A stretch of DNA of 64,000 nucleotides from Amyloporia xantha (lineage: Eukaryota > Basidiomycota > Agaricomycetes > Polyporales > Adustoporiaceae), in assembly GCA_036971615.1 (NCBI GenBank), contig JAYKKR010000038.1:62001-126000 (forward strand), given 5' to 3'. A program made the translations under genes and the position numbers. Below, piece after piece: positions 8,895 to 62,952 of this stretch; position 1 is the first letter of the stretch; the number at the start of each line of letters is the position of its first letter. A model generated the notes under the pieces. The model made no database searches, was not told where the DNA came from, and saw only the letters and a list, made by a program, of their open reading frames with translations.

Positions 8895-10126
8895 ATGTTG
8901 GCAGATCGCCTTCAACGTCCTCGGCCCAAACACAATCCCTTTCGCCTTCAGTGTCGTCAATGTCAGCGCTGGTTCCAGAATCTATCCGGACTCACCCAGC
9001 ATCGCAATGCTGCACACCCAGTACCACCAAGTCCTCCGCATGAGCCGACCAGAGTGCCTTTGGAAGGAGTGGAGGATAGGGATGAACCGGACACACCAGA
9101 GCCTGGAGGAGTCCCTGAAGAACTCAGACAGTGCTCGGAGGAGCATGGTGGTGGCCGAAATTTGCTCAGGGAGGAACATCCCTATCTCAATGGCAAGTAT
9201 TCGAGATAATTCAATAATCTGCGATGGGTTACTGACGAAGTTAAACAGGGCGGCCTTGTGACCGCAATGGTACTTACCTTCCCTTGGGTACTCCTCCTCC
9301 CGCTCGGACCACATCTGCAGCCGGAGACTGGTTCCCATATGGAAACCGGCTCGAGTTTGAAGTCGCCGAATTCCTGTTCAAGCGCAATCAGATGTCACAA
9401 CCAGATATTGACATTTTAATGGATCTGTGGGCCGCGTCACTGCTCGCTTATGGCGGCAGTCCTCCTTTTGTCAATCACGGCGACATGCACAGAACAATTG
9501 ATGCAACAGTGCTAGGAGACGCGCCGTGGGAGTCCTTCATAGCAGGGTATACTGGCCTGCAGCCCACAGCCAACGTACCCACATGGATGACCGTGAAGTA
9601 TCAGATATGGACCCGGAATCCACGCACCGTCTTAAATCTCATGCTTGCAAATCCAGACTTCGAGGATGAAGTCGATTTTTGTCCGTATCGTGAATTTACT
9701 CCTGACGGTGAACGGTGTTTTGTGAATGTAATGTCCGGCGACTGGGCATGGCGGCAGGCAGTACGTGGTTGAATCAGCTTTCTTCGAAATGAATAAACAA
9801 CTTGGGACCCACAGGACCAAATAGCTGAGGATGCCGAGACACATGGCGCCATGTTCGTGCCAGTGATACTGGGGAGTGACAAGACGACAGTCTCTGTCGC
9901 GAATGGGCAGAATGAGTACTACCCACTCTATATATCACTCGGCAATGTCTTCAATAGGGTACACCGAGCTCACCGAAATGCGGTAGTCGTGCTTGCTTTC
10001 CTGGCCATCCCCAAAAGTGAGTTTATTTCGTAGCAAAAGTTCTACTATTTGCTGATGTGGATTGAGCAGGTGAGCGAAAATATGACAACGATAATGTGTT
10101 TCGAAGATTCCGCCGCCAATTGTTTC

Positions 10127-28570: not shown

Positions 28571-29679
28571 AGAGGTCTGATAAATGGCACTGCTTATAGG
28601 TACAACGACGTGGGCACCACTGAGCACCGCCTTTCAATAAGAGCTCGGAGCAGACCTTCGAAAACCTGCCCAGTGGCAGTGGCAGTGTGCCGCCTTCAGA
28701 CGTTCAATAGCACGTGCCTGATTGTGCGGTCAGTTGCACGCGACGCGTCCGACATGTATCGACATGTATACATTGCGTGACTGCCTCTGGTGGACCAGTG
28801 ACCGTGTCTCGGTACCAAGACGTCGCTAAAAGACAAGTGCAGGCTCCTATTTTGTTGATCTTTTCGTAACTTGCTCGAGCTCTGGAATTTCCCATTCAAC
28901 TACGGCCAATGTATAGGTCCTTCATGGCGCCGAGAACTCATCAGTGCGCGGACTCAAGTATTCAAGGCTGGTCCTCCTGAACATAATGCTGCTGATCAGA
29001 ATTTCAGACACGAGGTGCACGTAGTTATATTCCCAGATGACATTCCAGGTGCGACAGGCACACTTGACAATTGCGTGCACTGCACGCCGCAATTACGAAA
29101 GGCAGAGCGGACATTATGGACGTTATCTTCGACTCGATGGCGAACCGAAAGGGGCCCTGATTTCGCAAAGAAGGCCGAGCGTCATATTCGTGAGGACATC
29201 ATTTACTGGCGTCTCATCCGAGAAGCAAACCTTGACGACCCTGTGTTATCTAGAATGTCCACAGCCGCGCTTTACGAACGACGCCCTCGAAAGTCTAGAT
29301 TACGGCACGGACGCCCCAGTAGACCAAGTAGTCACAATCATAAATTTTCTCCGACCTTCGGCAGCAACATTTACACTGGGGATCCGAGAGTTCGTGATAT
29401 GGCAGGCAACGCTTATCTCCACTGCACTTCCCTATGGTCTCGTCAGCTGGTGTGCTTGAGCAATCTCCGTCAAATTACATCAAAGTGCGCATCTATCGAT
29501 TTGTCATTCCGACACTGAATCTATTGATTGTATTGAGAGTGGTACCTCATTATCAATTGCCAATTACATAGCGTTTTCCATTGAATTCACATTGTCCACA
29601 CGTTTGGACAAATGCATTCAGCGATAATACGGTGTCACCACAACACTGTTTACGACACTGTCGACGTCGTTCCAAAAGC
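28571..29679. other. Conserved inter-gene stretch of the duplication arm, unrecognised coding traces
   Basis: Plus-strand open frames here (for example ARRNYERQSGHYGRYLRLD) have a recognisable counterpart on the minus strand of the right arm near 46360-46530 (DNYERQSRRYVMDIVLDSE). A third, unidentified gene may therefore once have lain between the UstYa and F-box genes. Both copies need frame changes and no family is recognised. Confidence 0.35.
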
Positions 29680-30723
29680 TCATGGAGGTGTGGTCAAATC
29701 CGCCTCCTCACCGAACCTCGTGACACGATCGAACGGTACACTCAATTCGTTCTCATGATTCCATTCCATAAGCTTATCAACCTTCCTGCACTTGTGCCAT
29801 GTGTTGAAGTCGGGGTAAGGCCGCTTGTGGCCTTCAACCCAATCGTATGTGATAACTCCCACGTCAGCATTGCATATGATGAATTGTCGTAACATCTCAA
29901 TGCAGTGGTCTGCAAACCTTGGTCAGCACGGCTAAAGGCACGCTCGCGACGTTTTACTATCACCTAAGTGGTTTCGGTAGTCCTCCGGACCGGCTAGGAT
30001 GGAAACGTCGAATGATTCATAATATTCCAAGTAAGTCCGTTTTCGCAACATGTTCTACAGGATCACGTCAGATTACCTCTGGAGCTCATGATATACTTCG
30101 TATAGAATCGACATACTAGACAATGCAGTTGATGGCCGAATTCTAGCGTTGCCATATATCCTCCGCCATCTTCATCGTGAAACTTGACAAGGGAGGGTCT
30201 TTCCGGTTTACCTATCTTTGACAGCATGTCTCTTGTAACTCGGACCGGCTTCACTGTGAGATCTCATGCATAAGCAATCATTCTACAGCAAAGCTACGTG
30301 GAAGGCGGACTGTCGGTGGATATCTTGTTCCATTCAGCATCCAGTGCGGGGTTAGGCGCCCCTCGGAATTCGGATGGGTAAGTTTGAGTGCCGTTGAACC
30401 TGACATCGTGATATTCGACGGCCTCCAGTGCAGGTGCTGCAGCTGAGGTCAGTATGATTCACTTCGTGCTTGAACAGCTCCTTACAGAAGATTGACAGCT
30501 TTTTCCCGCATTCAACCTCATTGGAACGAAGGGACAGCAGGAACAGTGTCGCAAAGAAGCAAAGTAGCAAGACATGCGCTAGCCAAGGAGCGATGCGATA
30601 CCACGTCCTCCGTTCCCAGAGCGTCCGCGGCGGGAGAGAGGTGTCACTAGCCTGTTCAAGCAAGTTGTAGGTTGAACCGCCATCATGCTTCACGGGCATG
30701 TACTCGAACGTAGAGTCAGGCAT
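29680..30723 (-). CDS. UstYa-like oxidase (DUF3328), copy A, intact
   Basis: Five exons (30486-30723, 30311-30442, 30117-30253, 29964-30054, 29680-29909) with introns of 43-62 nt total 828 nt, 275 residues. An N-terminal cytoplasmic tail is followed by one membrane helix near residues 45-67 (WLAHVLLLCFFATLFLLSL). The lumenal part carries the DUF3328 signatures: ALEAVEYHDVRFNG, then EFGHQLHCLNMLRK (HxxHC motif) and DHCIEMLRQFIICNADVG (second HC motif), and the conserved YPDFNTWHKCR. UstYa proteins are copper-dependent oxidases that oxidise or cyclise Tyr- or Phe-containing cores of ribosomal peptides such as ustiloxin. One donor (GTCCGC) is atypical but is supported by frame and by the paralog. 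The gene lies 1.8 kb from a KR-repeat peptide precursor gene and is transcribed away from it. Confidence 0.87.
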
Positions 30724-32436
30724 GTTGAGAACGCGGGGCGAAGTTGCGCATCATGATTGTATTCCTGGGAGTCCACTTATTACTACTGACTCTCAGAAAC
30801 TACAGCTTTGGGACAGGTGAATCACGCGGTCTAGGTGTCGTACTTGTCCAAGGGTCTCTCGGTACGAATTGGATTTCTACAGACGCCTGCTCAGGGTAGC
30901 AGAACTGCGCATTTCTCAGGCTTCCCATCCAGCTGACCTAGGAATCTAGATGAATGTGGTCTCTACTACGACTGATTACTCTAGCAGAACTGTGGGAGAA
31001 AGCCATGTTTCGTGTAAGGCTGGGCCTCAATACTATCAGGACAATTCACAGGATCCCTCCTTCGTCCACGTCGACAGCATGGACCGCCGAATCTTGCAAT
31101 GGCCCCTGAATGACTGCATCTGTGGTCATCCGTAGAGCAAATATGTCTCATGAATGATTTCATTGCACTGACGTCGCACTCAAGACGTTCCTCTATGGTT
31201 TTTTATTCGTATGTTTAGTAAGTCGTATCCTCTTTCTTGAAAGTAGTTATCCTGGATCACACGCGCAGCTGGGTATAATAACCAACTATGCCACTGTGTT
31301 ACAACCAAACATGCGCCGTTCAGAGCCTACAATATAAATTTGTGGTAAGCACATTTCCCATGAAACACTCCATAAGAAAAGTAAGTTGGCATTTTTCAGA
31401 AGCGCTCTCCGCTCTTAATGAGTCATGCACAAATGACTCCGCGCTTCTTCGAGAGAACATGATGCGAGTCGAACTCAATAGTTCAAAGTTCAGTCGCCTT
31501 TCCCTTGATTCGGGACGCTAATAATTAACGCGCGATGCATTCCATGGGCAACGTGCTATCATTATCTCACCTACTCGGCATTGCTTGAATCGTGAGCGCC
31601 ATACCGTATCGGCTTTACAAGACTAAGATGAGTGCAGCATCGAACATGATTGGCGACCACACTCACTACCTTCAAAGGTCAGCAAGTCCGTCTCAGATAA
31701 GGGACTTTCGGCTATTTTTCAAGCACTGTTGAAACCCTATTTTGGCCTGTTGTCAAATGATCTTGTACAAAAGACTCATTTGCATTCCAAGCCAGCTTCA
31801 GGCCGGTATCCCGATCATTACCAGAGTAAGGTAAATCTCATGTTCTGCTTCTACATCCATCTCAAAGGAACTTTATTGTGTAGACCTTCGTATTTCCTTC
31901 GCATGGGTCACAAAAGGTTTGATGAATTTCGCAGTAATTTGTGCTTGCAGGTTTTTGTTTGTATAGCCGCCTCAACTAGACCCTATTAGTTGAAATTCAA
32001 AAGCCCCAGATGATAAGCAACATCGTCAGGGTCTCCAGACGCCCTTCGCTCATGGGCGGCGAACAGAGGTTATGCGATATGACAGATACAGCGGCTTCTC
32101 AAAGTCTTCCTTTTGAACAGTGGTCTTCATATTCTATTCAACTAAGAGCGCGCACTTTCTGATTGTAGGTCATCGTTATAGAAGCGACCCTCTATTAGGA
32201 GTATTTTGTCCGACCGGAGGCTCTTCTCAAAGTCTCGAACAGAATCAGAAGGTTAGTGTTGAACGACGAACCATTTTAAGGATCCAGCATACCTCCGTAT
32301 CACGGCTTGTGGTATCTGACCCTTGTTCTCCTGCCGGTCACAGGGCAGAAGCTATCTGACAGTACGGCGAGTCTTTGAACATCTTTAGCTTCTGGAAGGC
32401 ATGAGTCACAGAGACACCGAAGGCGCTATCCTTGGT
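30724..32436. other. Intergenic between UstYa copy A and precursor A
   Basis: The first 190 bp (to about 30912) are shared with the right arm and presumably contain the UstYa promoter. The remainder is unlike the right arm and holds only short frames. Confidence 0.4.
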
Positions 32437-32496
32437 GTATTGCAATATCATCACGATATTTGCGAGTGTTGCGCCTGGTCTCAAATCTCATATAAG
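32437..32496 (+). promoter_or_regulatory. Conserved promoter block of precursor A
   Basis: About 60 bp, from TATTGCAATAT through ATATTTGCGAGTGTT to AAATCTCATATAA, match the block upstream of precursor B with about 8 differences, although neighbouring DNA is unrelated. The TATA-like end lies about 65 bp before the ATG. Such selective conservation suggests a shared control element. Confidence 0.65.
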
Positions 32497-32558
32497 CCAT
32501 GAAGAACTAACATTCTCTCACCAACATCTGGATCCTCCTTCTATTCAGCTAGTCCAAT

Positions 32559-33294
32559 ATGCAACTTCAATATCTCACCGCCTTCGTCGCTCTCATGCCC
32601 ATCCTCACGCTGGGTGTAGTGGCTCGCCCTGCCATCGGTAAGTCATTTCCAGCTTGTCTTTCTATTGATTATGACGATATGTATGTAGTCGCGGTAGCGG
32701 ATCTCAATCGTCGCGGTAAGACAACCGACATCCACAGCGCGAACTGACTCTGATCAGGCTGCATACAGCCGAGGATGTTACCACAGGTGCTGTTGACGAG
32801 ATTTATAGTAAGCGATGCAGCAATTCTTATACATACGCACAACTGATGATATCGACCTTAAGCCCTCAGCGAGAGTCGTCACATCACTGACAGTTGCATC
32901 TAAAGGAGATTCGGATAGCGTGACGTCCGGTGACCTTATAAGGCTCTATAGTACGTTCTGCATGCTTCCTCGACAATGATCCTGGAATTGAACTATCCTT
33001 TTAGAACGCTCGGACGTCGTGACTTCTGGTGACTTCATAGACATCTATAGTAAGATTTGCATGCTTTTTTTCAAGAATCCAGCTCATGTATTGGACTTGA
33101 AGCTGCCGACGAGAATTTCAGTAGGTTGTGCATTGCAAACTGTGGATGCGTGATTGACCACTGCCTCTGAAGAACGCTCGGACGTCGTGACCTCTGGTGA
33201 CTTCATAGACTTCTATAGTAAGCTTTGCATGTTTTTTTTCAAGAATCCAGCTCATGCATTGGACTTGGAGCTCTCGACGAGAACCTTGGCGTTT
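32559..33294 (+). CDS. Secreted KR-repeat peptide precursor A (ustiloxin-type RiPP precursor candidate)
   Basis: Exon 1 (32559-32637) encodes a 20-odd residue signal peptide ending VVARPA. Then come small phase-1 exons: 32698-32715, 32769-32807, a short one near 32863-32874, then about 32906-32950, 33005-33049, 33103-33120, 33173-33217 and a last one from about 33271. They encode degenerate repeats such as SDVVTSGDFIDIY and SDVVTSGDFIDFY, each closed by a conserved Tyr and spaced by short exons (TADENF, TLDENL). KR sites before SDVVT form only on splicing: A from one exon plus AACGC of the next. One expected short exon is missing and one KR is replaced by RD. The tail related to that of precursor B is out of frame after TLDENL. 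Kex2-type cleavage at KR and UstYa modification at Tyr are inferred from the ustiloxin family. Confidence 0.72.
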
Positions 33295-36125
33295 GACCTT
33301 AGGCATCGCGTAACTGTCGTAGCAGTAAAGAATAGTCATGATGTAAGAATAATACAGAGGAATGTCGAGAGTCATGTACTATGACGCATGATACCGTATA
33401 CAGAGACACACTTACGCCCGCCGTGTGATCACATTGCCCCCAACAGTGTTAAATTTGATCACCCTACGCAGAGTTTCTCCGAATGCAGAATGAACATACG
33501 TTACACCCCTTGAGGTCATTCTTATTGATCAGCTACTCCGCACCGCAGCCCGTTCGCCACTGAATGTGCTCCGGCATGACTGATGCAACCTCCGCTAGGC
33601 ACAGCGTACGTAGAAGCGAAATTATAGATGCAGCGGGAAATGGATTGTGCTTGCAAAAACACCACTAAGCTTGGCGCGCGAGGACAAGACTAGAATACGA
33701 GGGCTCGACCGAGAAAATTACCGACAAAAACAATCGTCGTGAAGCATAGTTCAATGGCAAGCTGTACAGTGTCTTAAAAGGCTACTCAAAGTTGGCTCCC
33801 GTTCCATCACATTGAACGGCGTTGTAGTAGCTTCATGCGGGGTCTGGGTCAGATTCACTGATGGCTGCGGAAGAGAGGATAATACTGACACGAGGCTGAC
33901 AGCGATGGAGAAGCCGTAACCAAGAAATTTAAAACTGTCGCACGACATGGAATGATGGCTTTCAACGTTAACTTCAAACCTTCGAGGGACTGACACTGCT
34001 TATCGAAGCTCCGCCGCATCGCGCAATCGACCTTGTTGAGAAAATGGCCTGTATTGAAGACTATGTGGGCTCCGAAACCAGCAAGCATAGTAAGACCAGA
34101 CAGGAGGGTGAACATATTCCTTGCGATTTTGCACGCAGTGGTCAACAAGTTACATCACTCTGTACGACCACAAGCGCCACGTCCGAGAGCATTCACGACA
34201 AGTAATTTGCCAGGCCTCTCGGCAGACACGGCAGATTTTGAACACGGAGCATTTGGATGCGATCCTCGGTGTTTCATTGAGCAATCAGGCCTCAGGAGCC
34301 TGAACGAAATAATGGGCTATTTGCTTGTACGAAGAAGTTTAGTATACCTCAAGACAGAATCCAGCGGAGTCGACTTCCTAGCAGTTGAACAACCTATCCA
34401 AATCAAGCATAAACAAGGCGTTCCGAGCCGAGCGGAGGTATGCCAAACATGTTACGGTCACCTACGTATATTCGTCAATCATGATTAACACCAACATCAA
34501 CTTGATGCGCCACATATTCTGGCAGGCTGTGCAATTGGGGCATGGAGGATGTACTAGCCGCTGCGGCTAGGATACCGGCAGACTTTGCATTCGCAAAGCT
34601 CTACTGGGGTAAGCTCTACAGATTTATTTTGAGAAAACATCGCATCCACATTGAAACGATACCGTGAACATCAACATGTGACAGTCAATCAGCAGCTGCA
34701 AAGTTCGTGTCAGAGCCGATGAGCACTCTGGTGCCCAGAGCTGCGAGCAGATGTAAAGCATGGTCACGTGCCACAGATCATCGTTCTTCGGCTCGTCTGC
34801 TAGACTGGAACGCCCAGTCTCATACTCTCACAATGACATGGAGAACTTTCTGTTACAGCAACAGATTGGCAATGCATAGCCAAGTGATGACATCTGTCAG
34901 GCAATAGTGGATATGCTAGACTCCGTACGATATCAAGTCTCCACCGAGGAATGCATATTAGTCGGTGACTTGGAAGCCCGGTGCGTTTATACATAATTAG
35001 TGCTTTCGTAACGAGGAATCTAATTTGAAGACAGTGCTATATTCATGGCTGTAAAGCTTTCTCGATGAATAGCAACCTGTGTCTGTCTTCGCAGAACCCC
35101 GTTTCATCTGGGTATGCGTTTGGACTACTGCAATGTTCCGACTCGGATCCGATGCAAGCACAAAGACGAATCAAATGTTTGAAAAGGGTCTGAAGAACGT
35201 ACTTTCCTATTTTGTTCTTCCTAAATTCTTTGCTATATGTCGACGTGGTATAAAAATCATGGAGAAGTATCACGGGGCCGGTTTGAACTTCGGAGGTATT
35301 CATCAATTACTTGCAAGTGAAAGCATAGGCTTAAGCAAAGTTTGTGGTGTTTCATTATCACTGCTTGTTAGTGTATGGCCTGACCGAACACAGTCGTTTG
35401 GGTGGTAGCCAAACTTAGCTGAAAACAGGCAGGCCGGTGTGAAAGACAGAGGAACTTCAAGACTTTCAAGTTCATCACTGCGCGCTAACCATGATCAAGC
35501 ATGCTCAGAGTCGTGGAAACTAGGCTCAGAGATCACCGCAGTGTAATGATCCCTGTATATGTTTCGACCGTACTGTTTCGAGTGCATGGTAGGTCAGGTT
35601 TTCTATGTTATTTTCCTGTTGCGATGACTTGTATGAGACATTGATTTGCTGTTCTATATTGTGACGGTACTCAACGTGATAACTGGCAGTTCTTCTCGGT
35701 GAATCTCCTACATTTCCAATCACCACGGATTGCTGACATTGCTAAACCGTCTCTGTTTAGTCAATGCTCCATCGCACTACCACATCGGGGGCGCTGTTCT
35801 TTACTGCGAACAATCGGTCTTGTTGTTGAAGTTCCCAACACGGTGAAGTGCCGCGCGTGTAGTAGCTGGGCGTATGCGATGCATGCACAAGATTCTATAT
35901 CAAGAGCATGATAGATGTTACCGGTGAAACGAACGCTAGCACCCGCAGCTATGTGGAGTCCTGTCGTCCCCCGTTTTACTTCCGGTACAGACGGGGCCGA
36001 TGGCGTCTAGCAGTCAAAGGTTTCTCATATAAAGACCTTCCTACGTCTCCCTATTCCCTAGGCTCTTCTTTGTACTCATTGCAGCACTACATTCGTAGAC
36101 ACGTTCCAACTTAGATCGATCCAAC
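33295..36125. other. Region without a supported gene
   Basis: Several hydrophobic minus-strand frames between 33760 and 34150 (for example FTLLSGLTMLAGFGAHIVF) could be exons of a membrane protein, and a plus-strand segment near 34900 reads SVRYQVSTEECILVGDLEAR. Neither could be joined into a gene or assigned to a family. Everything else is short frames. Confidence 0.3.
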
Positions 36126-37075
36126 ATGTTCTCCAAGCTCACAGTCACCTTTCTCGGTCTTGCTCTCGCCCTTGGGCAAGTTAATGGCGAGACACACACT
36201 ATCAGTTTCGTCAACAAGTCAGTTCACTCCTCTGTTCTGGTTTCCCTACTGACGGCAGTGCCATGATAGCTGTGGACGCGGGACTGTCAGCATACATTTA
36301 CTCGTCCAACTGTGGATTATCATTGACTTAAATTCGCTAAGCAGCCATACTTAAGAGCACAAAATGGAGACGTCCTCTCGACTGGTGGCGCCTACACCAG
36401 CAACGGTGCTATCATCGGAGCGATTGCGTATGTGTCTTTCATCTGGGCATACTACAGCAAAGACGGTCCACTGACTAGTATTACGGGACTTTTGATAGTT
36501 ACCTTCAAACAGGTCAGTATTCACTCATATGGGCCGCTATTTGAGCTCGTATCAATCTTCAATTGAACCTTATCTCTATTCAGGGAGCTGCGGCGATGAC
36601 GGTGAGGGCTGCACTCTTATCGAAACGACACTCGAGAACGGTGCGAGTAGCAGCGACATTTCGCTGATTCCTCCGTAAGTCGGATTTTCCACTCAAGTTT
36701 TATGTAGACAGCTCACTTTTTGTAGTCACGAGTTCTCCGTCGCCAGTGGCTTTGGGTCAGTAATTTTAAGCATTCTTATATCGTTAATCAATCTGATGTG
36801 TGTCCTACAGCTACTACAACGGATGTGATGGCGCGGGTGCTGACTGTGAGTGAACTCATGGACGGTGTCTCATCTGTCACGTAATCATGCCTTGGGACTC
36901 TCGACTTCTAGGTACCAGTGCCGATTGCACCGATGCATTCCACAACCCTAACCAGACTTACGTGCAAGTTCCCTGCAACGTTGATAACGTGAGTACTCCT
37001 CGAACTTTTTTGCTTTGACAAACATGAACCTACTTGTTGTCATAGTGCGACCTCTCTATCACGTTCTGCGACTAA
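36126..37075 (+). CDS. Secreted thaumatin-like 'glycopeptide' protein
   Basis: A signal peptide (MFSKLTVTFLGLALALGQVNG) is followed by ETHTISFVNNCGRGTPYLRA, NGDVLSTGGAYTSNGAIIGA, LQTGSCGDDGEGCTLIETTL, SLIPPHEFSV, YYNGCDGAGADC and a Cys-rich end DNCDLSITFCD. About nine short exons with GT-AG introns are needed, and the phases agree at each junction. This is the small secreted, Cys-rich family common in Agaricomycetes and usually labelled glycopeptide; it resembles the thaumatin fold region and is extracellular. Its biological role is not established. The gene appears intact, ends in TAA at 37073-37075 and lies in the unique centre between the two peptide precursor genes. Confidence 0.82.
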
Positions 37076-38162
37076 ACGCAGCGCGAAAGACTTTGGACAC
37101 CAGTCGATTTTAGGTACTCTCAAGTTCGTTGAAGGACTACAGTGTATCTACATCGGAAGCGGCTCCAGTTTCTCTGCTATAACGTGAAGTAATGAAAGAA
37201 ATTGATTGGCATTATGTCGCGTTCAAACGATGCTCATGCATGAGCGATTGACGGCTGTGTTCCGTTCAAGAACCACCCATGCGCACCCAAATAGCTCTCC
37301 AGAATCCCTTGTTTTCCATGTTCATATTAAATCTGTCTTCTATCCGTCTATATCCTAGATCCGATCCTCGCAGCCGGCATCAATGCACGGTTCACGGGAG
37401 TCGATCAACAGCAAGCTCTCTGTAGGTCACATTGTTTAATCGTGTCGGGGTCATATCTATTAGACTAAATTGATTGAATGCGCAAAGCTGTCGGGACATG
37501 AAAAGATGTAGACACGCGTGGTGTAATCACGATGGAGTGAATCAGCCAAAGAATGGAAACATTGACTGCCCTGCTTCTCCGAGACTCCGACAGCATAAAA
37601 ACACACCTGACACTGAACCTTATTGACCAGATTATCATTTGAAACCGCAGCTCGTTCACCATCATGAATGATCGGACAAACTTGGTTGGACCTTGGAGCG
37701 AAATGAATCCAATCCGTATTTCTCCTGTAATCAGTCGAGAGCTGCGGAGATGTATCTCTATTGACCTGAGTCTGTAATACAGTACTACTAGTCTCATATA
37801 CTGTCGCCCTCCGCTAACTCAAATTCACATACCACTCCGCCTAGGAGAATGAGCAGTTGTCTGTAATGAGATGGACGCCTCAAGGAAGATATTGCACTTG
37901 CGATGATACTACTGAGCTTACCATGCGGGTAAAGACTAGAATACGGGGACGAGCCTAAGGTTCCTGGTTACGACAAACGAAGACGTTAGTCACCGGGTCA
38001 TGTGACTGTGACCCCACGCGCCAAACGGAGGTCACGCCCTCGGCGCGTCTATGTACTCGTTGTTGACTCGTGGCTCCCGAAAGCCGCTGCACAGCCGCAG
38101 AGTATCTCGGCTATAAGTACATCTTCAATAATCGCGTTCAGATTGACTTGCTACTTGGGAAG
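37076..38162. other. Intergenic, no supported gene
   Basis: The 3' flank of the glycopeptide gene and the promoter side of the F-box gene. Only short motif-free frames are seen. Confidence 0.4.
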
Positions 38163-39758
38163 ATGTCGCCACAGGATACAAGGTGTGCTGCGTCCGGACT
38201 GAATACACGTCTGAAGTCTTAAGTTATCCTCAGATTGGCCAGCACAGAGGACGATGTGGTAGTACAGACGACCAGTCTACAGAGGAAAGATGATAGTTCT
38301 ACCTCTGTTAAAGAATGCGCATCGCAGCAGAAGACTTCCATTTCCGTGTACACTCTAGCCACGGAACTCCTGCTCCAAATCTTCGCTGAATATCAAGCAA
38401 ATGTACGCGATAACTATCAATCAATAGTTGTGTCTCATGTGTCTCGACACTGGCGCAATGTCTCTATCAATGACCAAATGCTCTGGAGCAGTATATTCCT
38501 GCCTACTCATCCGGAAGTCCTCTCCATGTTCCTAGATCGTTCTCGTGATGCACCACTTACTGTATTCCTCGATCGGTGCCAGCACATTGTGGATATGCCT
38601 GAGCGGTTTCACCGGATCATGGAACACACACACCGCATCAAAAGCTTTCACCTTTCCGGCTTGTCCCTACAATCAGGCTTGGAAGAGGCGATCAAATTGC
38701 TGCACCGCGAAGCTCCGCTGCTTGAAACACTGCTTATAAGTGGTTCGTTCCTCGGCCCAGAAACAGTTAACCCTCATACGAGACTCCCGGACATACTTCT
38801 CCACAACCGGGCTGCTCGTTTGCGGCGTCTGGAAATCACTGGATGCTCATTCCGGTGGGGTTCTGCCTCTCCTCGCACATTGAGGCACCTACGCGTCGCT
38901 AACATCAATGGTACATCGCCAACAATGGCTGAGATGATTCATTTTCTCAAGGGACTTCCTCTCCTAGAGACCCTCGACATAGAGAAGAGGGTGTCTCATT
39001 TTGCGTGGAGGAATCCCACTGGCCTGCGTGAGGATGTTATTTTACCGCTTCCCTTCACCACTGCTGAATTGCCCCGACTGCACTCCTTCCGACTTATTGC
39101 GGACAATCTCTACTGCGCCGCCATCCTGGATCACTTAAACTTTCCAAGCCTATCCTCCATCCGTCTTATCTGCAATCCATGCGATGGCACGTCTGATCTC
39201 ATGTCGGCTCTCGCTATAAAAGCGACTGTCTTGAAAGAGATTTCTTCCATCAATATATGCGGCATGGACGAAGGTCAGACTCAAATACAATTCAAATATC
39301 AAGAAAGCCTACGCGAATTCAATGTCACTTTCCAGCTGAGGAGGGCTCCTTTTGCGCTGCCCCTCACGCCATTCGAGGCCTCCAATGCAGCAGCTGCCCC
39401 CTTGGTGCGCCTCTTCGCGCACATGGACCAGGTGTCTACATTGCGAGTTAGCGGATCCCGTCACGCTGGCCCAGCGATCATGCCAGCCCTCGCAGAGTGT
39501 TTCCCAGAACTACGAGCACTAGAACTGGAGGACGTGCACTTCACAGACCGCATCAGCCGGGATAGGGATCCAGAGCGACTGATGGGAGCTCTGGTCGGCA
39601 GCTTGGAATGGCGTCGCGCATCGGGCATTGAACTGCAGAAACTGCGCCTCACTCGCTGTTTTGATTTGGGTCGGAAGGAAGTCGAACGGCTGAGAGAGGT
39701 AGTGGCGTCGGTGGTATGGGACGGAGAGGCAGATGCGCTTGACAGGGAGGATATTTGA
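38163..39758 (+). CDS. F-box protein with LRR-like C-terminus, intact
   Basis: The long open frame from 38234 lacks a plausible ATG. A 20-nt first exon (38163-38182, MSPQDTR) with a 51-nt GTGTGC-CAG intron places it in frame for 514 residues. Residues about 45-100 form an F-box: ISVYTLATELLLQIFAEYQ, VVSHVSRHWRNVSINDQMLW. The rest is leucine-rich with an LRR-like rhythm (LETLLISG, LRRLEITGCSF, LRALELEDVHF). It is a probable SCF substrate adaptor. It is not closely related to the A-D F-box family in this window, but is of the same broad type as the gene at 61.2 kb. Confidence 0.83.
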
Positions 39759-40280
39759 TGCAATTAGGCTGCGCTCTTTCTGGGCATTATAATACCCCGT
39801 GTGGACAGAATTTCCACATTTGTATCTCCCATTAGCATATCGACTCACGGTCCTGACTTGTCTTGCACCCTGCGTCACTGACATGAGAGCAGCCAGTGCG
39901 GTCTTCATCCTCGAATAAGGGGCGTCTGCTGAGCGCCAAGGTGGGCGTCTCGTACAGGCCCGCGTTCATCAAGGGACAATCATTAACGGATACATACCAA
40001 TATTTGGCGGTTCTGAGCCACCCTCAAAGTCAATCATGAATAGCTGCTGAAGTACTTTCACAATGGCCTCCAATCCCCATGATCCAGTTCTGATCGTAAG
40101 TGAGATGTTCTTTGAAAGGGTTTTGTACTAATTGAGCGACGGACTCTATGTACTAAAGCGCAGGCCCTGAGCTCAGGCCTTATCCTCGCCCTCACCCTCC
40201 TCAAAAAATTGGAATCGTGGTGAGGGTGATATAAAAAGAGGAGACGGCACGTATTAGCGAGCGCGGCGCAAGAACGGCAT
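39759..40280. other. Intergenic, no supported gene
   Basis: Short frames only. Confidence 0.4.
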
Positions 40281-40620
40281 TTTTGCTCCCCTTCAGACAT
40301 TGTGCGAGCGGGTGAGAGAGCTCTCGAAGCACCAGTGGGATGACCAACGTTGCAGGCAACGACACTGTCTCACTTTTTGACACCTTTAGTCCGGCTCACC
40401 ACACGCTGCTGTTGTTCAGCAACGATGTAAGTCAAGTCGAGTCTATTATCCATGGTCTGCGAGCATATACTGCAGAAACATTTCGTTCGGCAAATAGCCA
40501 TGGACAATTGTCGTCGCCAGACCGGATGGTGCTGTCGGCGAGGTCCTATCTGACTTGAGCGGAGTGGAGCGATACTTCGACAACGTGTTCAAGCTCTCAA
40601 CAGCGACCGCCGTACAGTAG
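40281..40620 (+). pseudogene. 3' end of a FAD-dependent monooxygenase gene, frameshifted
   Basis: Three plus-strand segments in different frames read RAGERALEAPVG, then NDTVSLFDTFSPAHHTLLLFS, then VVARPDGAVGEVLSDLSGVE-RYFDNVF before a TAG. This is the C-terminal thioredoxin-like region of phenol-hydroxylase-type flavin monooxygenases, where R-P-D-G is strongly conserved. The FAD-binding N-terminal 400 residues are absent, and at least two frame changes are needed. It lies 630 bp from the 3' end of peptide precursor B and may be the remains of a tailoring enzyme gene. Confidence 0.65.
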
Positions 40621-41245
40621 AAGTTGTTTGCAGAGATCACCATCACTAGCTATGTCTACTGGCAGTTTGAAACGGGGGAAACATGGCAACCTAGCCGCAC
40701 TCTAAGTTGCTCCCTTGGGCAGCTTTCTTAGATGGTCATGTCGACGAATTCAAGCATGATGAGACGCCTTGACACCGCCGCCATACCTTGGCTGATGTAT
40801 ATGATATATGAACATCATGGACAGCGGACTTCTGACCCAGGCCTGAGTCACTACGCGGATGAAAGGCATTGACTGGAACGTTAAGCTTGTAGGAATGTCA
40901 TGAATGATCATATGTTGTCGCTGCGATATGTCCGAGTCCTTCGCAAGTTAGAAATGTAGATGGAATCTGGTTGGACGATGAAGTCAAAATAGACAGCAAG
41001 CTGCACGATGCTGTTATTCAAAGGAAACCGTTGGAAAGAAAGGTAATTTCTTGCCAATATTCCAACCCGTACGCACTGTCGACATAGAACGCTGCTCTCG
41101 CGGACAATTAGATGGAGACAAAAGGGGGCCCGCAGGCATCCAATATTGACATGCGTGGCAGGACATGACTGCCAACATCAATTTATACATCATTTGCACA
41201 TCGAGTTCCTCGTACAGTTTACATGAAAAGTGATAACACTCCCGA
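40621..41245. other. Intergenic, no supported gene
   Basis: 3' flank of precursor B. No motif or gene seen. Confidence 0.4.
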
Positions 41246-42824
41246 TCATATACAAGCCTTCACTGCTGTGACAGTCATGCGATGTGCCACGTCAACTTTC
41301 GAAACTGGGAAAACTACCATGGTGATGGATAGCCTCAGACGTGAGGTAGTACTAGCCATCATCGGACGAAGCCTTGTCGAGCACACTCGCAGTGATTGCC
41401 TCACTCGACTTCATGAACAGCAATCAATACCGTATACAGTCTCGGAGAAATATGACTTACTATCAGTCTCGTCGAGAGCTGCGTTGGAGGTATAATTAGT
41501 CGCGTACATCGCTACTATAAACAATTGGGAGCGTACTGTAGACCTCGTTGAGCGCACCGGCAGTCACCAGGTCTGACCGTTCTTTATGTGCAAAGATTAG
41601 CTGTATGTCCACTTCTAACATGTATAACCTACTAAGGTTCTCATCTAGAGCTTCAGTTCAGGTAAATGAATGTCAACCACACGTATCGTTATAAGCGAGA
41701 AGACGGGACTTACTGTATACTTCATTGAGAGCACCCGCAGTCACAAGGTCCGAACGTTCTTTGAATGTAGTGATCAATCACATGTCCACTGTTAACAATG
41801 CAAAACCTACTAAGATTCTCGTCGAGGGCTTTGGAAGAGAATCGTCAGCTTTGGTATATATCGTTATGCGGCAGTGCCATAGCTCACTGTAGAAGTCATC
41901 GAGAGCACCCGCAGTCACAAGGTCCGAGCGCTCTTTAAATACAGGTGTCAATGTTGCGAGTAGTCGCGAGAAACACGACCTACTAAGGTTCTCGTCGAGA
42001 GCTTTGGAATGGGCGTCATTAACTTTGACACACATCGTCATGCGACAGTGCATAACTCACTATAGAAGTCATCGAGAGCACCCGCAGTCACAAGGTCCGA
42101 GCGCTCTTTGAAAACAGGTGTCAACGTTGCGAATAGTCCCGAGAAACCCAACCTACTAAGATTCTCATCAAGAGCTGTGGCAAAGCCTCATCAACTTCGA
42201 TACACTTCGTCATGAGAGTGCTTTACTCACTATAGAAGTCATCGAGAGCACCCGCAGTTACCAGGTCCGAGCGTTCTTAATATGCAGTCTCATTATAGCG
42301 CCTAGTAGTAAGAACACACAACCTACTGAGATTCTCGTCGAGAGCTTGGGTATAAACACCATCAGTTATAGTAGTGCATTGTCATGCAAAGGTGCATCAC
42401 TCACTGTAGAAATCATCGAGGGCACCCGCAGTAACCAGATCCGATCGTTCTTGAGGTAATGGAGTCAATGATTTGCGGAATCTAGAGCCTTAGCGACCTA
42501 CTGTAGTTCTCGTCAAGAGCTTTGGGTTTGATATCATCAGTTATATACGTATTTCTCTGGTATCAGTACTTAACTTACTGTAAACCTCGTCAAGAGCACC
42601 TGCAGTAACGTCCTCAGCTGTATGCAGGCTGATCAGGGCTGATGGTCCGCGCTGTAGAAGCGGAACTTTTTACCGCGACCAGTGAGGTCCACTACTGTGT
42701 TCATATGTTCACGTTATCGGCCAGTAAAAAGGCAGTCCGGAATTGACTTACCATTGGCAGGGCGAGCTACTGTCCTCAACATCAACAGGGGCATGAGAGC
42801 TGCGAAGGTGACATGAAGTTGCAT
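41246..42824 (-). CDS. Secreted KR-repeat peptide precursor B (ustiloxin-type RiPP precursor candidate), intact
   Basis: Exon 1 (42752-42824) encodes a signal peptide, MQLHVTFAALMPLLM... to ARPAN. It is followed by an 18-nt exon (VDLTGR), a 39-nt exon (AEDVTAGALDEVY), an 18-nt exon (TLDENY) and six pairs of a 45-nt and an 18-nt exon. The long exons lie near 42408, 42231, 42061, 41888, 41715 and 41537 (plus-strand left ends), and the last exon is 41246-41295. All introns are phase 1 and the exons sum to 576 nt, 191 residues. Each pair encodes SDLVTAGALDDFY (NEVY in the last two) plus TLDENL. K of the preceding KR is assembled from the last A of one exon and AA or AG of the next. The signal peptide, KR-bounded repeats, invariant Tyr and nearby UstY genes point to a kexin-processed, UstYa-modified peptide. 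The product is unknown. Confidence 0.8.
41461..42600 (-). repeat. Tandem genomic repeat of about 170-178 bp (six units) forming the precursor B exon pairs
   Basis: Each unit contains one 45-nt exon, an intron, one 18-nt exon and a second intron. The exons are strongly conserved and the introns much less so. Spacing between successive 45-nt exons is 178, 173, 173, 170 and 177 bp from right to left as read by eye. Confidence 0.85.
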
Positions 42825-42888
42825 GTTGAACTAGTTGAGATGAACGAGGGGCTAGATGCTGGTATGCGAATGTCCGTTCATCATGGGA

Positions 42889-42949
42889 TTATATGAGATT
42901 TGAGGCCAGACGAAACACTCGCAAATATCCTGATAATATTGCAATATAG
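42889..42949 (-). promoter_or_regulatory. Conserved promoter block of precursor B
   Basis: On the minus strand the block runs TATTGCAATAT, ATATTTGCGAGTGTT, AAATCTCATATAA, as upstream of precursor A. The TATA-like end is about 65 bp before the ATG. Confidence 0.65.
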
Positions 42950-44760
42950 CAAGGACCCAATTCTGAGTGCTCGCCAGAGAATTGGTACCGCTCTGGTTAA
43001 TGCCCATCAGAAGCCAGAGATGTTGAAGGACTTGCCGTGCTGTCAGACAGCTGCTGCCATATGACTAGCACAAGAACCAGGGTCAGACACGAGCCTTGAT
43101 TCAGGGTTCCGGTGAGATCCTCGCAACGGCCCGTCCTTCAGCATCAACGTGCTTCCAAGCCCATTTGGGGTGTTGGTAAAGTCCACAATTTCTGTCAACC
43201 ACAAGCTAGACGTGTACTCCTGGTCAGGTGGAATACGCGGACCGTTCGGAAAATAGGGTCGGTTACAAATCGTTGCGCCATACCGCCTGGAATTGTCGTC
43301 CACCAGCGTAAGGCGTCTTTCTACTGAACAATGTGAAGATTTTCTCCATTTGGCGCGGGCCTAGTCATTGAGGGCGCTCGGGATCAGGTCTTGTGGGGTC
43401 AATGATGCGGACATGTAATATGTCAAAGAAATACCTATCAGCGCAATTTGATGGGATACGTAAGGCGTCTCGTAGCTCCCAGGCTATTTCCGTGTGAGTG
43501 TGACGCGCGAAAGAGGAGTGGACGTCTGCACAAGTAGAAAGTGGAACGTTTAACTTAATCTGCCCTGGTGACACCAACCTTCCCTAACTGGACAATAAGC
43601 TGAATGTTTGAAACAAACGAATTTCCATCCGTGCTCGCTCGAGAACAACCGCGTCAGTTTTCTGCCGCCGTTGTGAGGAATAGATGAAAATCTCTTATCA
43701 GACCTGTCGTTCTAAGGTAGTGAGTGCCGTCGTTAATCGTGTTCTATGCTACGCTTGGCTTAGAACAGATATGCGATGACGCTCACGATTCCACAATGCC
43801 GAACCGGAGGCACTTGCTCCGTAGTATGTATTGATCATGAGACTCTGATGAGAGGTAAGTGAGTTTTGAATTATTCGCCACTCATGACGTTCCACGGAAG
43901 AAGTACGGAGGCATTTATGCATGACTCTTAACAAAGGAGGGGGCTTCCGGAACAATGTCAACTCTAGTCGCTTGATGGGAAGTTTGATGGGCAACGTACC
44001 TATTGCAAGCCAACTTTGAGAGCTCCGAACTGCGCATCGTCGAAAGAAACAATGTAGCTTGTTTAGTCATTAGAGACCGTTGTGCAAACGCCGTAGAATG
44101 ACAAACTTCCAGGGTAAGGATAGGACGTACCATTCTCTCTGAGCACAAATACGTATAAATAGACATCATCAATGCAATGAATCATCCCTGCGATAGAAAT
44201 TCTCGATACAGAGGACCCTGAATCCATCAGGAACTGTCAACCGATCAGGCGGGACTGTAGCAATTCTAGGATTCAATAGTTAATAGCATCAATATGACCA
44301 AAAGGGGAGCCCTGTGAATGGTCCAAGTAGTGTCGAGACCTAACTACATGCCGCACTTTCTCTCGCACTGCTGGTGAAATGACAGGTCGTGATGGAGGGC
44401 ACATCCATCCCAAAATCCGAGGATAGCAGGGAGGTTTGAGATGATTAAGCCATCGCACAAACAGAAGGTGAAGCTCCCACCGAGATCAAATGTCAAGCGC
44501 TTCCTCGGGATCAGATTCGCTATCACCCATCAGGCCGGTCATGTATCGGCCAATACGACCCTGAGATCAGAAGGCGCAGTCCTACTACCCTGAGCAGGCG
44601 TCTGTAGAAATCCGATTCGTACCGAGAGACCCTTGTGCAAGTACGACACCTAGACCGCGTGATTCACCTGTCCCAAAGCTGTAGTTTCCGAGAAACAGTG
44701 GTCATAAGTGGACTCCCAGGAATACAGGCATGATGAGCAACTTCGCCCCGCGTTCTCAAC
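42950..44760. other. Region between precursor B and UstYa copy B, no firm gene
   Basis: Minus-strand frames at 43043-43303 (NGPRIPPDQEYTSSLWLTEI) and 43365-43577 look somewhat protein-like but could not be joined or named. From about 44573 the sequence belongs to the right duplication arm. Confidence 0.3.
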
Positions 44761-45807
44761 ATGCCTGACTCTACGTTCGAGTACATGTCCGTGAAGCATG
44801 ATGGCGGTTCAACCGACAACTTGCTTGAACAAGCTAGCGATACCTCTCCCGCCGCGAACGCTCTGGGAACGGCAGACGTGGTATCGAATCGCTCCTTGGC
44901 TAGCGCATGCCTTGCTACTTTGCTTGTCGGCGACCCTGTTCCTGCTGTCTCTTCGTCCCAAGCGAGGTTGAATGCAGGAAGAAGTTGTCAATCTTCTGTA
45001 AGGAGCTGTTTAAGCGCGAAGTGAATCTTATACTCACCCTTAGTCGCAGCACCTGCACTGGACGCCGTCGAATATCACGATGTCAGATTCAATGGCACTC
45101 AGACTTACCCATCCGAATTCCGGGGGGCGCCTAATCCGGCACTCGATGCTGAGTGGGACAGGCTATCAGCCGACAGTTGGTCTTCCGCTTATCCTTGCTT
45201 TAGAACGATCACTTATGCATCGAAACTCACAGTGAAGCCGTTTCGGATTACAGAAGACATATTGTCGAAGATAGGTAAACCTGAAAGACCCTCCCTTGTC
45301 AAGTTTCACGATGAAGACGGCGGAGGATATATGGCAACGCTCGTATTCGGCCATCAGCTGCATTGTCTAGTATGTCGATTCTATACAAAGGATATCGTGA
45401 GCCACAAAGCCAAACTGATGTGATCCTGTAGAACATGTTGCGAAAACGGACTTACTTGGAATATTATGAATCATTCGATGTTTCCATCCTAGCCGGTCCA
45501 GAGGACTACCGAAACCACTTAGGTGATAGTAAAACGCTGCGAACGTGTCTTTTCGCCGTACTGATGAAGGTTTGTAGACCATTGCATTGAGATGTTGCGA
45601 CAGTTCATCCTATGCAAAGCTGACGTGGGGGTCATCACATACGATTGGGTCGAAGGCCACAGGCGGCCTTACCCCGACTTCAACACATGGCACAAATGCA
45701 GGAAGGTCGATAAGCTTATGGAATGGAATCACGAGAATGAACTGAGCGTACCGTTTGATCGTGTCACGAGGTTTGGTGAGGAGGCGGATTTGACCACACC
45801 TCCATGA
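44761..45807 (+). pseudogene. UstYa-like (DUF3328) gene, copy B, frameshifted
   Basis: The sequence follows copy A closely: it starts MPDSTFEYMSVKHDGGS and contains FGHQLHC, a second HC motif before MLRQFILCKADVGV, and the same C-terminus (FGEEADLTTPP). Relative to copy A, two bases are missing near 44849 (copy A TCTCTCCCG, copy B TCTCCCG), which throws the membrane helix out of frame. One extra base lies near 44962. The downstream catalytic region remains open, so inactivation looks confined to the 5' part. Whether a shorter product is made from an internal ATG cannot be told. Confidence 0.8.
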
Positions 45808-46828
45808 GCTTTCCGAGCAACGTCGACAGTGTCGTAAACAGTGTTGCGGTGTCACCATATCCTCGTTGAATGTCTTTGTCCAAACGTGTAGACAATGTGA
45901 ATTATGATTATGGCAAACGCTATGTAAATTGGCAGTTGATAATGGAGGACCGCTCTCAATAGATCTGCAGCCAATCAACAGATTCAGTGTCAGAATGACA
46001 AATCGACATATGCGCACTTTGATGCGTTTTGACGGAGATCGCTCAAGTACACCAGCTGACGAGACCGTAGGGAAATGCGTTTTGGAAAAGCGTTGTCTGC
46101 CATCACGAACACTCGGATCCCCGATGGAGAATGCTGCTGCCGACGAAGGTCGGACAAAATTTTGTGATTGCGACTACTTGGTCTACTGGGGCCGTAATTG
46201 GGGCTTTCGAGAACATCGTCCATAACGCACGGCTATAACATTCTAGATGACACAGGGTCGTCAAACCTTACTTTCGGATTAGACATCAGCAGATGATATC
46301 CTCACGAGAATTGCTCTCGACAATGCTCACAAATCAAGACCCTTATACCCCTCCCTTCTTTCGCCGACCTCTCGATTCGCCATCGGCTCGGAGTCAAGGA
46401 CAATATCCATGACATACCGTCTGCTCTGCCTTTCGTAATTGTCGGCGTGTTCGCGACTATCAAAGTATGCTCGTCGCACCTGGAATGTCGTCTGAGATGA
46501 GAATTTTATGTGTATCTCGTGTCTAATCAGAAACATGACTTTCAGGACCGGTCTTGATTACTTAGTACTTCGGTCCTCGCAGTGTGCACTGATAGATTCT
46601 CGATGTTATGACGGACCTGCTATTCATTAGCCATATTCGAGGATCCTTCCAGAGCTCGAGCAAGTTACGAAAGAATCAACCAAATAGGAGCCTGAGCTTG
46701 TATTTGATGGATGGCTTAGTCCCAGACATGGTCCAGTGGAGGCAGCCACACATACGACGCGTCGCAATGCGAGAGCAAAATCAGGCACGTGCCATCAAAC
46801 GTCCCTCCAATTGCAAGGCGGTTACGTG
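45808..46828. other. Right-arm counterpart of the unidentified middle region
   Basis: Minus-strand frame near 46330-46540 (RREHADNYERQSRRY-type sequence) parallels the left arm. No intact gene. Confidence 0.35.
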
Positions 46829-61204: not shown

Positions 61205-62952
61205 ATGTCCTTCAAAATTCCTCGGTACGTTTCTGTCTTAAAAAGCCTTACAGAAGGCACTGATTGCTATGAAGTGGGACCTTTAGTTTCACACCTAGCA
61301 TCCAGGATGGAGAATCTTTGACGACTTACACCAGAAAGGCGTATCGCGAAAGTCTGGTGCGCGTTAGGGCGGCTAGAACGTGGTGCAATGAGCTGGGCCC
61401 AATTTCGGTCCTTCCTCCCGAGATCTTGGCAGAGATCTTCAAGACCGTACAAGCTCTTACGGAAAAGTCTCACCAGGTGTCAGACCTGTCGATATCCAGC
61501 ATTCCGTATTTCTACCAATGGATCAGGGTATCTCACGTCTGCTCTCATTGGCGCTCTGTGGCGCTCGAGTTTGCTTCGCTTTGGGCCCGCGTCATTGTGC
61601 CTTCTTCTACGCCACTTAATGAAGCGGTATTGGCTCGTTCGAAACGGGCCACACTAGATGTCACAGCAGATCTCACCGTTGGCGGAGAGGAAAAGATATA
61701 CCCACTCACTCTGGTACTCCTCAACATATGGAGGCTGCGCAGTTTGCACCTTTCGGCGCCGATAGATAAACTGGTTCAGCTTGGCAACTGTATCTCCGAA
61801 ATCGCTTCAGCCCCTTTGTTGCAGACCTTGGCTATCAGGAATACTACAACAATGTCACCCGAGACCCTCGTGATGCTGACGCCACCTCCGTTGCAAGTCG
61901 AACTAGATTGGACTCGAGGTCTTGAAACACTGGAGATTGACAGGTATCCTTTCCCTTGGGGTGTGCCAATCCCCTTCAATGGTCTACGCCACCTTACAGT
62001 TTTTGGGCTGGAAAATGGGCTGGATATAACGCAATTGCTTCAAACGCTGAAGCAACTCCCCAAGCTAGAGACCTTGGAACTACAAGAGCTGGGGCCTTTG
62101 TATAGTACGGAGGAGTTGTCGGAAGCCGAGATGGTCTCGCTCGGCTCTCTTCGTTCTTTGCACCTAGCTGCATCTGCCATGAACTGTGTATGTCTCCTCG
62201 GGCAACTCCGCTATTCAGCGAACGTGACCCTTGCGATGAGTACATATTTTGAACTGCAAGCTGAGGACGTGTTCGAGCAATTCATTTCCTTCCTTGGGTC
62301 CAGGCTATCTACCTCAAGACCATTTGCCGTGTTTTCGATGGAAATGAAATCGCACGACACCTTCCGGATCCGGGCTTCCAACGGTGGCGAAAACATACTC
62401 TACCTTGAACTGCCTTTTTCCACAAATAGACGTCACTTCTCACTGAGGACAATATGCGAGAAATTTTCACTGTCTCAAGTTTGCGTTCTCAATCTCGTCA
62501 AGTTGTTCTCTGATGACCCACCGCAGGGCTGGGCCAGCATCCTGGGCTCGATGCAGAACGTGGAGGTCCTTTATGTGCAGGACATGCCGATTGCAAACCT
62601 CATCGAGCTGCTGGAGCGGCGACAGATGGACCGGAAGTTGGGTCGGATCGCCTACGTCTTCCCTCAACTATATCGTTTGCGCTTGAGAGGGTCCCAGATA
62701 ACGGATCTCTCGAATTACAAGCAGGGGGGCGAGGGTAAGATGTACGCGTTCCAGGACTTGCTCATAAAGAGGCGCGATCAGGGTGCGATGCTCAAGGAGC
62801 TAATCCTTATGGAATGCGTTCACATACGCAGAGAAGGAGTCGTTCGTTTGGCGCAAGTTGTGCCACATGTGTATTGGGACCAAGTTCAGCTCGTCCGCCA
62901 ACCCCTCCCGGAAAGGATGACCTCCGCGATGCAAACGGCGCTTTATGCATGA
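61205..62952 (+). CDS. F-box protein, intact
   Basis: The long frame lacks an ATG at its beginning. A 20-nt exon (61205-61224, MSFKIPR) and a 62-nt GTACGT-TAG intron bring it in frame at 61287, giving 561 residues. The F-box lies at about residues 50-110: ISVLPPEILAEIFKTVQALT and WIRVSHVCSHWRSVALEFASLW. The remainder has LRR-like segments (LRSLHLSA, LETLELQEL, LRSLHLAASAM, LYRLRLRGSQI). It is a probable SCF adaptor of the large Agaricomycete F-box family. Its target is unknown. The same 20-nt first-exon design is used by the F-box gene at 38.2 kb. Confidence 0.85.

Follow-up and report, generated by a model that had tools for sequence, protein, structure and literature searches.

The basidiomycete Amyloporia xantha carries on contig JAYKKR010000038.1 (hereafter C32) a group of genes resembling the loci of dikaritins, ribosomally synthesised and post-translationally modified peptides (RiPPs) whose class-defining enzyme is described as a UstYa-type DUF3328 protein (PMC12048977). 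We analysed bases 62001-126000 of this contig (64,000 nt, hereafter the window) and searched the whole genome (46.8 Mb, 60 contigs). An earlier note had placed in the window two UstYa-like genes with HxxHC motifs, flanking two precursor genes that encode a signal peptide and KR-separated tandem repeats. All four genes lie where it had put them, the ends of the precursor genes being refined in Table 1. The two flanking genes do match PF11807 and carry the motifs, but exon 1 of the second, UstYa2, is frameshifted; likewise, precursor 2 is intact, but precursor 1 is reduced to two full and two partial units. Neither in-window pair is therefore whole. The locus is also larger than first described: C32 holds three modules of one UstYa gene and one precursor gene, two in the window and a third about 5.5 kb to its left. 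Each UstYa gene is divergent from its precursor gene, with 1.8-2.0 kb from start to start, and the two in-window pairs form an inverted duplication with eight arm pairs, seven of them 86-93% complementary and one, of 63 nt, 75%.

Table 1. Features of the UstYa-precursor modules and of related loci (window positions, unless a contig is named).
Feature	Position	Strand	Description
UstYa1	29680-30723	-	Five exons: 30723-30486, 30442-30311, 30253-30117, 30054-29964, 29909-29680; 275 aa
UstYa2	44761-45807	+	Exon 1 (44761-44997) out of frame; exons 45044-45175, 45233-45369, 45432-45522, 45578-45807 intact
Left arm of inverted duplication	29399-30913		Carries UstYa1
Right arm of inverted duplication	44571-46103		Carries UstYa2
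Precursor 1	32559-33296	+	Reduced: two full units (SDVVTSGDFIDIYTADENF, SDVVTSGDFIDFYTLDENL) and two partial ones behind a signal-peptide-like exon
Damaged micro-exon of precursor 1	32863-32893	+	Without usable donor; reading on meets a stop
Upstream region of precursor 1	32439-32558	+	Matched in precursors 2 and 3
Precursor 2	41401-42824	-	Intact; 16 modelled exons and a likely 8-nt last exon (41408-41401)
Repeat array of precursor 2	41461-42449	-	Exons of 45 nt and 18 nt in turn, starting at the first SDL unit
45-nt exons of the array	42449-42405, 42275-42231, 42105-42061, 41932-41888, 41758-41714, 41581-41537	-	
18-nt exons of the array	42344-42327, 42174-42157, 42001-41984, 41828-41811, 41650-41633, 41478-41461	-	
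Upstream region of precursor 2	42825-42944	-	Matched in precursors 1 and 3; also inverted-repeat arm I6
Third pair (UstYa3 and precursor 3)	C32:52443-56545		Outside the window
UstYa3	C32:55503-56545		Outside the window; open over five exons
Precursor 3	C32:53471-52443		Outside the window; 45/18 plan as in precursor 2; units such as SDLVTAGALNDHYGLNAEF
C45 precursor	C45:394117-395453		Twelve repeat exons (48-60 nt), all with FEKSYSDYYK at the end; type (EP/EA)EVEADFEKSYSDYYKR
C18 relative of C45 precursor	C18:314990-314683		Two cores, intron between K and R
C45 relic	C45:469952		Decayed-looking; no UstYa match within 20 kb
C19 precursor	C19:376470-377429		Eleven dibasic repeats, mostly of LFIKYDRR type ending KYDRR, all in a single long exon; UstYa gene about 2 kb away; classical counterpart within this genome

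Precursor 2 begins with MQLHVTFAALMPLLMLRTVARPA..., followed by a unit AEDVTAGALDEVYTLDENY, four units SDLVTAGALDDFYTLDENL, one unit SDLVTAGALNEVYTLDENL and a last unit SDLVTAGALNEVYTLDETD. The N-terminal hydrophobic stretch (12 residues) reaches 2.27-2.53 in the three C32 precursors and is signal-peptide-like, so that precursor 2, its signal being judged by hydrophobicity, combines a secretion signal with several units bearing dibasic sites, as do dikaritin precursors and KEX2-processed repeat proteins (KEPs). The 15 introns are all in phase 1 and 51-63 nt long; the final 8-nt exon is likely but uncertain, as read-through is also open for a while. The seven units are joined by six KR sites, all of which straddle introns, the lysine codon of each being interrupted after its first base. 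These predicted splicing-assembled KR sites, which the earlier note did not mention, are the most unusual feature of the C32 precursors, and in the open-licence literature searched we found no description of Kex2 sites interrupted by introns.

The exon models derive from the genomic sequence and were examined through codon-position variation, splice sites and identity comparisons. Among the four units of precursor 2 that encode identical residues, all 13 columns that vary fall at the third codon position, as do 14 of 16 when five units are compared. The four 51-nt introns between units have no such periodicity, their variable columns being distributed 13/13/13 by position. Exons are also more alike than introns (identity 0.84-0.85 versus 0.60-0.63), and 70 of the 82 pairwise codon differences among the five units are synonymous. 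All 38 modelled introns are GT-AG (15 in precursor 2, 11 in precursor 3 and 12 in a further precursor, on contig C45, described below), and branch-like motifs are found in 13/15 introns of precursor 2 and 10/11 of precursor 3, for a shuffled expectation of about 0.31. If retained, ten of the 15 precursor 2 introns would introduce an in-frame stop and two a frameshift. On these genomic comparisons, the predicted micro-exons of precursor 2 behave as coding sequence, and the pattern of variation is beyond chance.

Across the 14 full units of the three paralogues, which are not independent of each other, T5, G7 and Tyr13 are invariant; the two partial units of precursor 1, left out of this count, carry the same three residues as read. 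Positions 1-9 (SDLVTAGAL) are mostly conserved and the tail is variable, Tyr13 being the sole invariant residue of the variable half. A leucine stands two residues after it in 12/14 units (Y-T/G-L). Since the residue preceding Tyr13 may be F, H, V or I, the conserved Tyr or Phe-Tyr announced in the earlier note holds for the tyrosine and not for the phenylalanine.

UstYa1 and UstYa3 score 202 and 196 bits with the PF11807 profile (cut-off 25), and stretches of UstYa2 exceed the cut-off as well. Two HxxHC motifs, HQLHC and HLDHC, are present in UstYa1 and UstYa3, with identical letters in the later exons of UstYa2; UstYa1 has a single hydrophobic segment, starting at residue 47. By a simple count, UstYa1 and UstYa3 differ by a synonymous divergence (dS) of 0.32 and a nonsynonymous divergence (dN) of 0.063. 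The resulting dN/dS of 0.20 indicates that purifying selection acts between them. A protein search with UstYa3 found 72 proteins, with top identities up to 69% (Taiwanofungus, Postia/Rhodonia and others); the best matches are basidiomycete, and the first ascomycete bearing an organism name ranks 41st of the 72. The organism-named relatives among the best 40 of these 72 are presumably all Agaricomycetes.

At the DNA level, the UstYa genes of C32 are 88-90% identical, compared with 70-77% for the 5' parts of the precursor genes, so that the precursors seem to evolve more quickly than the enzymes. Upstream of the three precursors, a 120-nt region is shared at 81-91% identity and includes a TATA-like stretch. 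The earlier note had held that precursor homologues never lying near DUF3328 genes would speak against it. What we observed in this genome is the reverse: a DNA search with precursor 2 hit three places, itself included, and 3/3 adjoin a UstYa gene.

We also looked for precursors at other UstYa loci. The PF11807 search of the genome gave 32 stretches, grouped into 19 loci, and the sequence around 13 of these was inspected. Contigs C32, C45, C18 and C19 together hold six repeated dibasic precursor genes, three of them on C32. The C45 and C18 genes form a second family, unrelated-looking to the C32 precursors, and have UstYa pairs within some 1-4 kb. In the C45 precursor, 10 of the 12 modelled introns separate K from R, and the first and last ones stop just before KR; for the last, an acceptor three bases further would likewise yield K|R. 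Among nine comparable exons, 7/8 variable columns are at the third codon position. The leading EA/EP dipeptides of the units are reminiscent of Ste13-type trimming. As the C45 and C19 precursors came from looking beside UstYa genes, the unbiased part of the linkage test is formed by the relatives found in DNA searches with two precursors: three non-self relatives still read as precursors and all adjoin UstYa genes, and one relic does not. A pattern of Asp-Tyr-Tyr-Lys followed by a donor was found at 10/12 exon ends of the C45 precursor and at one place on C3, which we rejected as a precursor since surrounding repeats are absent.

Some side observations concern these other loci. On C4, near a UstYa gene, lies a small gene (C4:635072-635361) whose start is signal-peptide-like and which ends in one DGITFVGTYGRALDDKL, by eye a possible single-core precursor. 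Near another UstYa gene, an eleven-copy tandem repeat (C35:105013-105962, period 86, 94% matches) is not obviously coding. UstYa matches score identically on C26 and C52, which hints that these contigs are duplicated or haplotypic.

The mechanism established for the class comprises a secretion signal, release by Kex2 in the Golgi and oxidative cross-linking of tyrosine by UstYa-type enzymes (PMC9769878, PMC9233826, PMC12048977, PMC6514808). At C32 the class-defining enzyme gene, DUF3328, adjoins the precursor in all three modules. We think it likely that C32 encodes a dikaritin-like, UstYa-dependent RiPP system of two-gene modules, in which splicing would assemble the inter-repeat KR sites and the UstYa enzyme would then cross-link the conserved tyrosine of each repeat. 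The precursor would enter the secretory pathway through its signal-peptide-like start. Removal of the intron at each such site would complete a lysine codon (AAR) ahead of an arginine codon (CGN), thereby creating each inter-repeat KR, and Kex2 and Kex1 would then release 19-residue peptides; a Kex2-type P domain encoded at C12:2329488-2329800 suggests that such a protease is present. By analogy, the SDLVTAGAL half may serve as a recognition stretch for the UstYa enzyme, which would oxidise Tyr13 and perhaps link it to the leucine two residues on. UstYa2, the neighbour of precursor 2, looks broken; UstYa1 or UstYa3 would therefore act on this precursor in trans. Both exon sizes, 45 nt and 18 nt, begin and end in phase 1, which would allow a unit to be added, lost or skipped with the reading frame preserved. 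Precursor 1, whose frame is open only if the damaged micro-exon near 32863 is skipped, would be an example on paper of such in-frame skipping.

A number of results weigh against this system. Among the genes, the frame is not intact in all three UstYa copies, exon 1 of UstYa2 deviating from the frame of both sister genes, with its hydrophobic segment weakened (peak 1.48 as read, versus 2.29 in UstYa1), and it is this copy that the sole intact in-window precursor adjoins. Precursor 1 is reduced, and in precursor 3 one dibasic site is altered to KP and another to KRP. Regarding splicing, the three remaining precursor 2 introns would, if retained, bring neither stop nor frameshift, and branch-like motifs are found in only 2/12 introns of the C45 precursor (expectation 0.26). 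In precursor 3, identity is 0.80-0.83 for introns, 0.91 for 45-nt exons and 0.76 for 18-nt exons; its introns being fairly alike, constraint on the exons is less clear there. Precursor 1 has two KR sites, both at splice junctions, and one RR within an exon; in precursors 1 and 3 it is the RR ahead of the first unit that sits inside an exon, so that intron splitting affects the inter-repeat KR sites. Together with the C19 repeats, which are uninterrupted by introns, this means that splitting is no rule for all dibasic sites. Finally, a repeated precursor lies near only 6/13 inspected UstYa loci (three on C32, and those on C45, C18 and C19). Two repeat scans, the second without C35, found none near the seven others (three on C34, C4, C35, C45:443-446k and C26:21k); single-core precursors would escape such scans, which also passed over precursor 1 and the C18 gene.

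Searches for homologues and for cluster enzymes add to this list. Among 5.8 billion predicted proteins, no homologue was found for precursor 2 (at E<=1) or for the C45 precursor (at E<=0.01) when the best 7997 word-sharing candidates were scored. These negatives are weak evidence of absence, given this number of scored candidates and because micro-exon genes may often be unannotated. Likewise, when precursor 2 was searched as protein against the genome, the six matches all lay inside precursor 2 itself; precursors 1 and 3 were missed, although the DNA search caught both. Short exons thus defeat protein searches. Pfam had nothing over cut-off for precursor 2 or the C45 precursor, the nearest families being DUF4359 (20.1 of 27 bits) and DUF1068 (24.1 of 25). 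A search of solved structures returned 89 sequences at E<=1, the best 60 nearly all calmodulin, with a best E of 0.0021, no single stretch passing and no usable relative. The older five-gene definition of dikaritins includes a tyrosinase, a peptidase or transporter, and a methyltransferase (PMC12048977). In intron-blind searches of the genome, tyrosinase matches were found only on C11 and none on C32, and there was no match to an S41 peptidase. For cytochrome P450, 112 stretches matched and none of them lies on C32, but with 92 of 267 candidates scored we do not count this for or against the system; of the 158 candidates for the major facilitator superfamily, nine were scored, none of those nine on C32.

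Comparison with known systems points to likeness of plan. Ustiloxins and phomopsins share with C32 a signal-peptide-like start, repeated cores separated by KR, and nearby UstYa/DUF3328 genes with two HxxHC motifs. Their core, given as EDYXI (PMC6339444), has an aliphatic residue at +2 from Tyr, as does Y-T/G-L. However, C32 differs in being basidiomycete, with one UstYa per module and each repeat spread over two micro-exons, in having one residue between the acidic residue and Tyr, and in the tyrosinase and S41 results given above. The asperipin-2a cluster (aprA, aprY, aprT, aprR; PMC6514808) is likewise small and has one UstYa homologue, but the asperipin core, FYYTGY, has three tyrosines, whereas the C32 core region has one per unit. 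Epichloecyclins (gigA) likewise come from a multicore Kex2-type precursor with Tyr-containing cores that are cyclised, but are ascomycete and have a different core (PMC9233826). Agaricomycetes KEPs resemble the genes described here by dibasic repeats behind a secretion signal; the difference is that the inter-repeat dibasic sites of the C32, C45 and C18 genes fall on introns. In Pleurotus ostreatus, also a basidiomycete, 16 UstYa-like genes are reported as probably dikaritin-related, and the available text names no precursor peptide (PMC8893723). A review-type source lists dikaritins from Ascomycota only, in its available text (PMC12048977). As predicted from sequence, the C32 precursors are a new basidiomycete UstYa-associated family, dikaritin-like in plan and, for the chemistry, by prediction.

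Alternatively, the C32 genes may be KEPs that release linear, unmodified peptides acting as signals or in defence, while the UstYa enzymes act elsewhere or are linked to them only by duplication history. Agaricomycetes are known to produce linear KEP peptides (PMC9769878), no tyrosinase match was found on C32, and in one survey a DUF3328 gene was near only 103 of 1680 basidiomycete KEPs, with the suggestion that there may be hardly any cyclisation in this group (PMC7329392). We nevertheless judge this unlikely, as three homologous precursors each adjoin a UstYa gene, an unrelated-looking family adjoins other UstYa pairs, Tyr13 is the one invariant residue of the variable half, and UstYa1 and UstYa3 are under purifying selection. 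A second alternative is that the locus is the decaying remnant of a duplication, from which little or nothing is now made. The frameshift of UstYa2, the reduced precursor 1 and the altered Kex2 sites of precursor 3 would fit, as would a Plavaka transposase in the window and the decayed relic of the other family on C45. This too appears improbable, and markedly so: precursor 2 retains seven units with mostly synonymous variation, and UstYa1 and UstYa3 are open, with the low dN/dS given above. That the repeats are a non-coding minisatellite, with exons read into it by chance, is hardly credible and strongly disfavoured: tandem repeats of period 173 and 175 do exist in the DNA, but the codon-position signal is in the exons and not in the introns, the introns of precursors 2 and 3 are all GT-AG with constant phase, and the paralogues retain the 45/18 pattern.

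If the dikaritin-like system is real, a conserved exon plus a variable micro-exon per repeat is a natural design for core diversification. Surveys of annotated proteins would easily miss precursors cut at Kex2 sites into exons of 18-60 nt; one such survey was built on annotated proteins, and the words intron and exon do not occur in its main text (PMC7329392) or in that of another study (PMC6339444). Substrates of orphan basidiomycete UstYa enzymes would then become findable by searching for exon chains. More tentatively, and judging it less likely than not, we propose that basidiomycete UstYa peptides are commonly encoded one per symmetric micro-exon or pair, with the inter-repeat Kex2 sites existing only in the spliced mRNA. 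Gain, loss or skipping of exons would swap core halves with the frame kept and yield a modular library, overlooked by annotation-based surveys, that could supply substrates for many seemingly orphan UstYa enzymes.

Among the remaining genes of the window, Pfam was run on 20 of the 41 open reading frames of at least 140 aa and returned no biosynthetic family. Over cut-off were F-box-like, Con-6 and Plavaka; under cut-off were three leucine-rich repeat types, F-box-like, DUF7558 and Velvet. The Plavaka transposase fragment is at 9245-9769, and the Con-6 (conidiation protein 6) match at 1577-2053 on the minus strand. F-box-like genes are found at 38223-39758 and 61273-62952, the second alone passing the Pfam cut-off. 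Between the two gene pairs, at 36126-37075, a gene with several exons encodes a small secreted protein, MFSKLTVTFLGLALALGQVNGETHTISFVNK...

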